The position numbers and the translations under genes were made by a program. A stretch of DNA of 64,000 nucleotides from Chitinophagaceae bacterium. GTDB taxonomy: Bacteria; Bacteroidota; Bacteroidia; Chitinophagales; Chitinophagaceae. This document shows positions 7,322-10,357 of this stretch, one piece after another. The notes under the pieces were generated by a model. It searched no databases. It was not told the DNA's origin and worked only from the letters and a program-made list of their open reading frames with translations. The DNA is taken from positions 141,104 to 205,103 of the forward strand of contig JAIETM010000005.1 of the NCBI GenBank assembly GCA_019745155.1, read 5' to 3'. Position 1 is the stretch's first letter; each line of letters starts with the position of its first letter.

Positions 7322-9106
7322 ATGAAGCATATCCGGAATTTTTGCATCATCGCCCATATTGACCACGGAAAGAGTACCCTGGCCGACAGACTGTTGGAGC
7401 ATACCAAGACCATTGGTGAGCGCGACATGATGAATCAGGTACTTGACGACATGGATTTGGAGCGGGAAAAGGGCATTACCATTAAGAGCCACGCTATTCA
7501 GATTAATTACCCGTACAAAGGGCAGGAATACGTACTGAACCTGATTGATACACCCGGCCACGTTGACTTCAGTTATGAAGTGAGCCGTGCACTGGCTGCA
7601 TGCGAAGGCGCCCTGCTGCTGGTAGATGCGTCTCAGGGTATTCAGGCACAGACCATCAGTAACCTCTATCTGGCCATCGATAACGATCTGGAGATCATTC
7701 CCGTGATCAACAAGATTGATATGGAAGGTGCCATGATTCCTGAAGTAACCGACCAGATCATTGACCTGATTGGCTGTAAACAGGAAGATATTCTCCTGGC
7801 CAGCGGTAAATCCGGCATCGGTATCGAAGCAATTCTGGAAGCTATTGTAGAACGCATTCCTGCTCCGGAAGGCAGTGAGGAAGCACCATTACAAGCTTTG
7901 ATCTTTGATTCAGTATTCAATAGTTTCCGTGGTATTATTGTGTACTACCGTATTCTGAATGGTGTATTGCGCAAAGGCGATATGATTCGCTTCATTTCTA
8001 CGGGACAGGATTATGGTGCCGATGAAGTGGGTATCCTAAAACTGGGTATGGAAGCCAAGAAAGAAGTGCGCTGCGGCGATGTGGGCTATATCATTACCGG
8101 TATCAAGAATGCCAAAGAAGTAAAAGTGGGTGATACCATTACCCTCGCGAATAACCCCGGTGAAATGATCCATGGTTTTGAAGAAGTAAAGCCCATGGTA
8201 TTTGCCGGTATCTTCCCTGTGAATACAGATGAGTTTGAAGAACTGCGCGATTGCATGGAGAAACTGCAATTGAACGATGCTTCACTCACATTTGAGCTGG
8301 AAACTTCTCAGGCCCTGGGCTTTGGTTTCCGATGCGGATTCTTGGGATTGCTCCACATGGAAATTATTCAGGAGCGACTGGAACGCGAGTTTAACCAGAC
8401 CGTAATTACAACGGTGCCCAACGTAAGCTTTATTGCCTACACCACAAGAGGCGAGAAGATTACGGTGAACAACCCAACAGAAATGCCTGATCCTGTAAAG
8501 ATCGACCGCATTGAAGAGCCTTTCATTAAAGCACAGATCATTACCCTGCCGGATTATATCGGTAATATCATGACACTTTGTTTGGGTAAGCGTGGTATCC
8601 TCATTAACCAGAGCTACCTCACACCCACACGTGTGGAATTGATTTTTGAAATGCCCTTAACAGAAATCGTATTCGATTTCTATGATAAGCTGAAGAGCCA
8701 GACTCGTGGCTATGCATCCTTCGATTATTCACCCATTGGTTACCGCGAAGCGGATATTGTGAAAATGGATATCCTGCTGAACGCCGAGAAAGTGGATGCT
8801 TTGAGTGCCTTGATTCACCGCAGTCGCGCACAAGACTTTGGCCGCAAATTGTGTGAGAAGTTGAAAGAGTTGTTGCCACGCCAACAATTCCAGATTGCGA
8901 TACAAGCAGCAGTAGGAGCGAAGGTGATTGCCCGTGAGAACATCAGCGCCATGCGTAAGGATGTAACGGCCAAGTGTTATGGTGGTGACGTAAGCCGTAA
9001 GCGTAAACTCTTGGAACGCCAGAAAGAAGGTAAGAAGCGTATGCGCCAGATTGGAAGTGTAGAAGTACCGCAGGAAGCTTTCTTAGCCGTATTGAAGTTG
9101 GATTAA
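7322..9106 (+). CDS. lepA: Elongation factor 4 (LepA), ribosome-associated GTPase
   Basis: Translational GTPase implicated in ribosome back-translocation and 30S biogenesis. The 594-residue length is standard. G1 reads AHIDHGKSTLADRLLE, G3 DTPGHVDFSYE and G4 NKID, followed by the EF4-specific C-terminal domain (VGAKVIARENISAMRKDV, KRKLLERQKEGKKRM). The start MKHIRNFCIIAHIDHGKS is unambiguous. The last 93 bases and the following terminator are duplicated 1.19 kb downstream (10206-10357), flanking a Bro-N gene. The reading frame itself is intact. Confidence 0.98.
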   Translation: MKHIRNFCIIAHIDHGKSTLADRLLEHTKTIGERDMMNQVLDDMDLEREKGITIKSHAIQINYPYKGQEYVLNLIDTPGHVDFSYEVSRALAACEGALLLVDASQGIQAQTISNLYLAIDNDLEIIPVINKIDMEGAMIPEVTDQIIDLIGCKQEDILLASGKSGIGIEAILEAIVERIPAPEGSEEAPLQALIFDSVFNSFRGIIVYYRILNGVLRKGDMIRFISTGQDYGADEVGILKLGMEAKKEVRCGDVGYIITGIKNAKEVKVGDTITLANNPGEMIHGFEEVKPMVFAGIFPVNTDEFEELRDCMEKLQLNDASLTFELETSQALGFGFRCGFLGLLHMEIIQERLEREFNQTVITTVPNVSFIAYTTRGEKITVNNPTEMPDPVKIDRIEEPFIKAQIITLPDYIGNIMTLCLGKRGILINQSYLTPTRVELIFEMPLTEIVFDFYDKLKSQTRGYASFDYSPIGYREADIVKMDILLNAEKVDALSALIHRSRAQDFGRKLCEKLKELLPRQQFQIAIQAAVGAKVIARENISAMRKDVTAKCYGGDVSRKRKLLERQKEGKKRMRQIGSVEVPQEAFLAVLKLD

Positions 9107-9167
9107 TTTTTTTTAGCAGATAGCATGTAGAAGCTGGAATCTAGCAATGGGTTTCAGCTTTTTTGTT
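9014..9167 (+). repeat. Left copy of duplicated lepA 3' end plus terminator (att-like direct repeat)
   Basis: This segment (last 30 lepA codons, stop codon and terminator hairpin) recurs at 10206-10357. In the coding part I count 3 differences in 93 bases, all synonymous. Past the stop codon there are a few more differences and a 2-base change in the T run. The pair brackets about 1.04 kb that contains only the Bro-N gene. Confidence 0.85.
9131..9166 (+). terminator. lepA terminator
   Basis: AAGCTG...TTTCAGCTT stem followed by TTTTTTG, 25 bases after the lepA stop codon. A second copy is at 10321-10356. Confidence 0.6.
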
Positions 9168-9240
9168 GGGGGGTGATAAACCGCGTATAAATTTTACTGG
9201 AAGATACTACGGGTATTAAATTTCCTTTCTTTGATGGGGG

Positions 9241-10080
9241 TTATTTTTTCTTGCCCTTATTGAGTAGTTTATTCTTTTTCGATTCCGGCAAATAGTTTTC
9301 AGAGGATACAACTTTCTTTCCTGTTTTTGTTTCAAGGTCTCTTCTTGCTTTACCAGCTACGGCGCCACCTTGTCTTGCTACTTGTTTATTTTGTATAAAT
9401 CCTTTTGGGTTTTGTGCTTTTACAATGGCTGTTGTTGAAGCTTCTCCCAACATTGAAAAGATTAGTTCAAGGTCGTTCATGTGGTCGCGGAGATTTTGGC
9501 TTTTTAGCCCCTTTACTTTTTTGTATGCTGAAGGTGTTAAGCCAAAAGTTGCTTTAGAAATTTCAGCCGTAAGTATTGCATACTCTTTTTGCTCTTTCAC
9601 TTCTCGGTTTCTCCATTCTTCAGTTAATTCTTCACGAATAGCAATACTGCGCATCCGTTTTTCTATCCAGTCATCAGGATAACCTTTAAGTTTATATAGC
9701 TCTCTGGTACGTTGTGTTGCCAGTTCAGGGTTTTCAATTTCATCTAATCTATCAGCGCCAACTTTAGCTAACCACAATTTGAATGGTTCCGCTTTAGGTG
9801 ATGGGATCGACTGGATAATTCTTAAAAGCCCTTTTGTATCAGCAGCCTGTATCTTGCGCTTTTTGCCATCTGCGGCTTCCATTTCAACCAGGGTACAGAT
9901 TGTACCCCAGTTGCTTTTAAGCTGTTCGTCTCGGCTAAGCATCTTTTTGATATACTGTTTCACATCTGAGCTGTCAGTCAATACCCCAACAACATCCTGC
10001 ACAGAGAAGTACCATTTCTGTTCGTTTTCACTCCAGACTGATCGTATTTGTTTACTCTCAAATAATTTAATGTTACTCAT
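9241..10080 (-). CDS. Bro-N domain protein, phage-antirepressor-like
   Basis: 279-residue protein with an N-terminal BRO-N domain (about residues 1-110: LFESKQIRSVWSENEQKWYFSVQDVVGVL, AADTKGLLRIIQSIPSPKAEPFKLWL). A charged helical C-terminal part follows, ending in a lysine-rich tail (KNKLLNKGKKK). BRO-N domains bind DNA and occur in phage antirepressors and in selfish or accessory genes. Here no phage genes or integrase accompany it. It is transcribed towards lepA and lies between two copies of the lepA 3' end, so it was probably acquired by insertion. Its DNA is more AT-rich than lepA. The domain call is firm; the function in this cell is unknown. Confidence 0.82.
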   Translation of the reverse strand: MSNIKLFESKQIRSVWSENEQKWYFSVQDVVGVLTDSSDVKQYIKKMLSRDEQLKSNWGTICTLVEMEAADGKKRKIQAADTKGLLRIIQSIPSPKAEPFKLWLAKVGADRLDEIENPELATQRTRELYKLKGYPDDWIEKRMRSIAIREELTEEWRNREVKEQKEYAILTAEISKATFGLTPSAYKKVKGLKSQNLRDHMNDLELIFSMLGEASTTAIVKAQNPKGFIQNKQVARQGGAVAGKARRDLETKTGKKVVSSENYLPESKKNKLLNKGKKK

Positions 10081-10205
10081 ATGTTTTTTTTCTTTTCAGG
10101 TTCGAGACTTTGTGCTTTTTGGAGTCCTCTCTACACCTTTAGACTCAATTGCATTCATATGTTAAATCCAAATTACAAAAGTTGATTAGCAATACCAAAG
10201 CGCTC

Positions 10206-10357
10206 GAACGCCAGAAAGAAGGTAAGAAGCGCATGCGCCAGATTGGTAGTGTAGAAGTACCGCAGGAAGCTTTCTTAGCCGTGTTGAAGTTGGATTAATT
10301 TTTAAGCAGATAGTATTTATAAGCTGGAATCTAGAAATGGGTTTCAGCTTTTTTGTT
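10206..10357 (+). repeat. Right copy of duplicated lepA 3' end plus terminator
   Basis: Encodes the last 30 residues of LepA (ERQKEGKKRMRQ ... LKLD) in an open frame without a start codon, then the lepA terminator. It differs from the true gene end only by synonymous changes in the coding part, so it likely derives from a related genome rather than from a recent local duplication. This and the flanking 10081-10460 stretch hold no other gene I can support. Confidence 0.85.

Follow-up and report, generated by a model that had tools for sequence, protein, structure and literature searches.

A lone Bro-N gene between two copies of the lepA 3′ end, and duplicated gene ends around some other lone genes

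The window, a stretch of 64,000 nucleotides from a Chitinophagaceae bacterium, contains an intact lepA gene of 594 aa (7322..9106, + strand) whose 3′ end is present twice. Copy 1 consists of the last 30 lepA codons, the stop codon and the terminator (9014..9167, +), and copy 2 is a displaced lepA 3′ end with its terminator and no upstream lepA (10206..10357, +). The copies lie in direct orientation with an offset of 1190-1192 nt (1.19 kb), and 3 of their 93 coding bases differ, all three synonymously; in both respects our recomputation agrees with an earlier note made from the sequence alone. Over 154 columns the copies are 93.5% identical (E about 4e-63), separated by 8 substitutions and one 2-nt gap (10/154 columns). 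When copy 2 is compared with full-length LepA, the protein match extends 3 residues farther upstream than the DNA repeat, with 2 of the 3 identical. A genome search returned exactly two lepA ends.

The copies enclose an inserted unit of 1038 bp (9168..10205) with a GC content of 38.6%, as against 46.7% for lepA, and within it a Bro-N gene of 279 aa on the - strand (9241..10080). The only other ORFs of at least 80 aa in the interval are two opposite-strand ORFs that overlap Bro-N, so the earlier description of Bro-N as the sole gene between the copies stands, as does that of an insertion sparing lepA. Downstream of copy 2 is a variable stretch (10358..12588, 28.3% GC) with three ORFs on the - strand, one of which has a weak WYL match. 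Farther on, AG-rich simple repeats at 12765-13160 and 14425-14835, which the window has in common with its congener G001, frame an alcohol dehydrogenase gene, and a conserved convergent gene of 332 aa without a Pfam match follows at 14922..15920 (-). The earlier note had also stated that no integrase is present; this holds for the contig with the window (C7), where we found no PF00589 match. Five PF00589 matches lie elsewhere in the genome.

The Bro-N protein matches PF02498 (E 1.2e-11), is labelled PHROG 15286, and gives a full-length match (residues 2-272, E 1.9e-120) to PDLC04920, the PADLOC model for PDC-S13. PDC-S13 is a candidate phage-defence family, and the protective role of the gene is accordingly putative; the literature that we searched held no mention of the name. 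The gene is single in its genome, and of 296 phylum genomes, 31 (this one included) have a member of its family at E <= 1e-40. The best 80 relatives in a genome scan have identities of 85% to 53% and are spread over Bacteroidota, Acidobacteria, Clostridia, Cyanobacteria, archaea and other groups. DNA similarity to the best relatives runs from within about 20 nt of the start codon to near the stop, indicating that the ORF is common to them and the flanks are not. In a scan limited to close relatives, matches came from 4 phage records out of 50,697 and 10 plasmid records out of 72,556, along with 14 viral-contig loci; given this rarity, and a flanking repeat in none of the 14 viral loci, we rejected the idea of Bro-N as a phage gene. 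The predicted Bro-N fold resembles both domains of DdrC from Deinococcus, which was the best of all chains in a profile comparison at E 0.095, and a single-sequence search gave no match. DdrC of Deinococcus radiodurans is a strand-annealing protein (PMC5436757). Bro-N differs from it by this weak sequence match and by its broad distribution, and the high rmsd of the predicted structure suggests another arrangement of the domains.

Our genus sample comprised three genomes, the window's own (G000) and the congeners G001 and G002. The earlier note had looked to relatives with a single lepA end, as against an arrangement duplicated in all of them without any empty site; G001 and G002 each have one lepA end, so that this refuting case did not arise, although no exact empty site, with the lepA terminator joined to the far flank, was found; G001 has other content 3′ of the terminator. 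Two copies were found in G000 only among the 229 matching genomes of the 244 family genomes searched. In G042 two matches are halves of one gene at contig ends; the split (end of L220, start of L221) is near the codon at which the repeat of the window starts. DNA identity between G001 and the window is 90.7% across a 3170-bp segment containing lepA. Both copies and G001 agree as far as the same last base of the terminator, after which come three unrelated continuations, and the stretch 10358..12588 has no match in the 20-kb G001 locus L008. A motif like gactctgtggagacagaaa occurs at 10410-10460 of the window and at 9705-9745 of L008, in unrelated inserts 3′ of lepA in the two congeners. Synonymous and nonsynonymous differences in the lepA end number 3/0 between the copies, 2/0 between copy 1 and G001, and 3/0 between copy 2 and G001, with 82/2 for the whole gene between the window and G001. 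The divergence of the copies is thus of the size seen between species, in line with the earlier suggestion that one copy came from a related genome.

The distance from lepA to the conserved convergent gene is 67 bp in G002, 6.1 kb in G001 and 5.8 kb in the window. Of 22 loci examined 3′ of lepA, some of which are short, 12 contain this gene; it is near lepA in several family genomes and is probably the older neighbour of lepA. The interval is enlarged, with differing content, in 2 of the 3 genus genomes, and the differing distances make it look like a place of gain and loss in the genus.

To ask how other lone genes are flanked, we counted direct repeats of at least 50 bits between the 400 nt on each side of a gene. 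Chromosomal Bro-N homologues had such repeats in 16 of 104 cases (10/76 plus 6/28), RhuM genes in 3 of 29 and DUF4143 genes in 5 of 30 (L255, L256, L259, L260, L274), compared with 1 of 190 neighbouring ORFs in the same loci; the lone control match (L026, 2792-3826) reads like a RhuM gene itself. Genes for 23S IVPs gave 0/28 and viral Bro-N genes 0/14. Bro-N differs from the neighbouring ORFs at a Fisher P of 3e-7, a value to be read with the facts that the 50-bit cut was set after a first look at the data and that a few loci are probably not independent (L077/L079, L140/L141 and, for DUF4143, L255/L256). At a looser cut (E <= 0.05), the first test gave 21/80 for Bro-N and 21/190 for neighbouring ORFs, so the contrast resides in long repeats. 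When ORFs 150-500 aa long were taken from the window and from neighbouring loci, 2 of 197 scored, namely Bro-N itself and one beside simple repeats. These denominators reflect rows dropped for a flank below 100 nt or a missing ORF (Bro-N 80 to 76 and 29 to 28, RhuM 30 to 29, IVP 30 to 28), and one further locus, L089, would raise Bro-N to 17/104 but reaches the cut only with the tblastn end taken as the end of the gene. Because RhuM and DUF4143 genes have the repeat too, we rejected the view that it is special to Bro-N, and the IVP result does not support the view that it is a property of every mobile lone gene.

The inserted length in the 18 Bro-N cases, window included, was 846-1394 bp (median 1013), and identity between repeat copies at the other loci ranged from 100% to about 70%, with short repeats of 100% identity at L052 (42 bp), L058 (35 bp) and L089 (33 bp). 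Several repeated pieces are ends of neighbouring genes, and others are intergenic or hairpins (L077, L079). From reading the sequences, we take the piece to be the start of a cas4-like gene in L026, the start of a GIY-YIG-like gene in L132, the end of a short-chain-dehydrogenase-like gene in L052 and the end of a 623-aa gene in L081. With the duplicated target varying from locus to locus in this way, a lepA-specific element is unlikely; nor is one supported by our searches, in which 0/20 family loci cut 3′ of lepA repeated the lepA end (some loci end within 2 kb) and none of the 123 other Bro-N loci, with flanks up to 4 kb, had lepA nearby. Bro-N stands just before a cas4-like gene in L026, L115, L118, L121 and L067, with the duplication in L026 only (1/5). 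Between the cas7-like and cas4-like genes of L026 (2555-5721) are, in order, a 5′ fragment of Bro-N, a RhuM-like gene, a 5′ fragment of cas4, a second 5′ fragment of Bro-N, and then complete Bro-N and cas4 genes. As far as the sequence can be read, these layers look like the result of repeated insertions. In L132 and L111 a second gene copy survives as remnants that have internal deletions; in L111 (1449-2845) a partial second Bro-N with an internal deletion follows the intact one. In L077 and L079, from gut Clostridia, a hairpin-like repeat flanks the Bro-N units, and the segment is about 90% identical between the two species.

The earlier note had raised the prospect of other cargo between duplicated lepA ends. 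This was not the case for lepA in the 20 family loci, and was found at an M24-peptidase gene (PF00557) in another genus, g147, that also has single-copy congeners. G267, G309 and G339 have one copy of the peptidase end, G399, G278 and G294 have three, and 2 of the 8 g147 genomes searched gave no match. The cargo between copies is RhuM and Fic-B in G399 and G278, and Fic-A (reversed) and Fic-B in G294. Both modules, RhuM and Fic-B, stop at one and the same base, ahead of AAAACGATC; the copies behind them begin at a common base and share their last base as well. The duplicated target of 87 bp is reused base-exactly with different cargo, although one G294 copy falls short by 16 bp. Whichever module comes next supplies the last residues and the stop codon of the peptidase. 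Genes 3′ of the array carry restriction or defence labels, namely HNH (G399), Vsr, C5 methylase and a HpaII-type enzyme (G278), and PD-Lambda-5-like and type II restriction matches (G294). Of the 9 cargo and island proteins that we scanned here, none matches an integrase and 2 match nothing. At the loci of this peptidase site, L214, L215 and L216, the three-copy arrays contain RhuM and a SoFic-type Fic, with restriction-type genes behind. A stretch of 3053 bp in G399, beginning with the third copy, shares 99.3% identity with G267, against 87% for the peptidase gene and the DNA upstream, so this stretch seems to have moved recently between species.

Substitutions in displaced copies were scored for 12 framable pairs, the other pairs lacking an overlapping ORF of at least 100 aa. 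Changes were mostly silent (synonymous/nonsynonymous) in L081 (9/1), L140 (3/1), L141 (4/2) and L026 (8/7), and rich in nonsynonymous change in L259 (7/23), L274 (6/9), L132 (2/5), L119 (2/5), L256 (0/5) and L255 (0/2), with the frames of L052, L255 and L256 being doubtful. Further pairs gave 3/2 (L149), 7/1 (G399, copies 1 and 3), 3/2 (G278, copies 1 and 3) and 7/6 (G294, copies 1 and 3). The pool over the 12 framable pairs is 44/60, and we therefore do not hold that displaced copies are constrained in general; they look constrained at some loci and decayed at others.

We hypothesize, with a probability of about one half, that Bro-N entered by a recombination event for which the lepA end of a related species served as anchor and whose second junction was non-allelic; lepA was left whole and one end became redundant. 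Bro-N likely arrived from the related species together with one lepA tail. One junction would come from homologous strand exchange within lepA, of the kind seen in transformation or conjugation, and the other would be non-homologous because the DNA 3′ of lepA differs between strains. Of the two earlier proposals, homologous recombination over the lepA end is the one that we prefer, here for one junction. With 3 synonymous and no nonsynonymous differences, one of the lepA copies would be of foreign origin, and the redundant end would be free to decay afterwards, which would explain why copy identities at other loci fall from 100% to about 70%. We favour import over copying in place because the lepA copies are about as distant from each other as from G001, with silent changes only, and because some displaced copies elsewhere changed mostly silently; our reading of the displaced copies overall is import, then decay. 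Several findings speak against anchored recombination. Two different modules at the peptidase site share one copy boundary, unlike random second junctions, the import signal in lepA amounts to three substitutions, and the pooled counts lean to nonsynonymous change. In addition, we saw by eye no clear microhomology at the junction of copy 2, and no donor with Bro-N 3′ of lepA was found among the 123 other Bro-N loci.

The base-exact reuse of the 87-bp peptidase target by different cargo keeps alive a rival that we consider unlikely but serious, in which the gene end acts as an attachment site and single-gene units without an integrase are inserted and stacked by a recombinase in trans. Such site-specific insertion finds its strongest argument in the boundary that RhuM and Fic-B share, and the lepA terminator, too, ends at the same base in three contexts. 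The missing integrase on the contig speaks against it, yet the five PF00589 matches elsewhere in the genome would allow action in trans. The lack of an integrase match among the 9 scanned cargo and island proteins, the short G294 copy and the change of target from locus to locus, with gene starts among the targets (L026, L149), weigh against it as well. The minimal unit moved in trans of the earlier note is not shown here, as we saw no integrase on the contig and no sign of excision, and the duplicated target varies by locus. A bolder reading, which we regard as rather improbable, would have lone defence-type genes travel as gene-end cassettes, each an ORF with a core-gene end, stacked at the same base 3′ of that core gene as an integron-like array without an integron; a DdrC-like, strand-annealing Bro-N would then promote annealing between its own DNA and gene ends that have diverged.

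Still less probable, in our judgement, is that a transposition-like event copied about 150 bp of target in situ and the copies then drifted. The fully identical short repeats at L052, L058 and L089 and the several displaced copies rich in nonsynonymous change fit such an event, and the pattern is known for restriction-modification genes from passages of PMC3874152 and PMC1643837. However, the lepA differences are all synonymous and about as many as between species, L081 has 9 synonymous changes to 1 nonsynonymous, and in G399 the third copy and the DNA downstream match another species at 99.3% while the parent gene does so at 87%. A larger part of lepA might also have been duplicated in tandem long ago, or been present as a merodiploid, and then have lost all but its end, for which the remnants in L132 and L111 are a precedent; we think it quite improbable, since no lepA remnant other than copy 2 was found in 9171-16000 of the window with LepA protein and lepA DNA (one chance-level DNA match, E 0.45) and the second copy occurs in no other family genome searched. 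An assembly artefact or chance would be in keeping with a genome assembled in 27 contigs, but is very improbable given that 10 of the 154 columns distinguish the copies, that the gene between them is single in the genome, and that many genomes show comparable cases.

Many defence genes are believed to spread although no mobile element is visible. A gene end that is duplicated and diverged records how a defence gene may have entered; such a footprint reveals the anchoring neighbour and can be searched for in any genome. Since duplicated ends frame some other lone mobile genes as well, the pattern may mark a simple route of spread, and the peptidase array, with its different cargo and single-copy congeners, makes the mechanism testable. 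The literature that we searched on lone candidate-defence genes held no description of this footprint, which is not proof of absence, and nothing direct turned up on a lepA attachment site, embedded defence candidates, Bro-N with RhuM, or lone genes with direct repeats.

Three known systems bear comparison. Integrative elements at gene 3′ ends and cis-mobilizable elements duplicate a gene end, leave the gene whole and stack at one site, and cis-mobilizable elements need no site-specific recombinase of their own. The direct repeats at the lepA end, the whole lepA and the stacking at the peptidase site are like them, but the Bro-N unit is about 1 kb with a single gene and no integrase on its contig. 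Homology-facilitated illegitimate recombination, with one homologous and one non-homologous junction (PMC3240628), and transformation merodiploids, with tandem duplications formed without a transposase (passages of PMC3784515), were observed in laboratory crosses, whereas the lepA-Bro-N case is inferred from sequence. Insertion with long target duplication, of variable length on the order of 100 bp, has already been described for restriction-modification genes (Nobusato et al. 2000 and Furuta et al. 2010, as cited in passages of PMC3874152 and PMC1643837), and the footprint around lone candidate-defence genes, as we read it in the sequences, is the part that we did not find described. Bro-N resembles those insertions in being flanked by 154-bp direct repeats (93.5%) in a genome whose relatives G001 and G002 have a single copy. 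It differs from them, as far as those passages go, in that the cargo is a lone Bro-N gene (PDC-S13), and elsewhere RhuM, Fic or DUF4143, that the copies are often diverged, and that one site shows exact reuse of its boundary.
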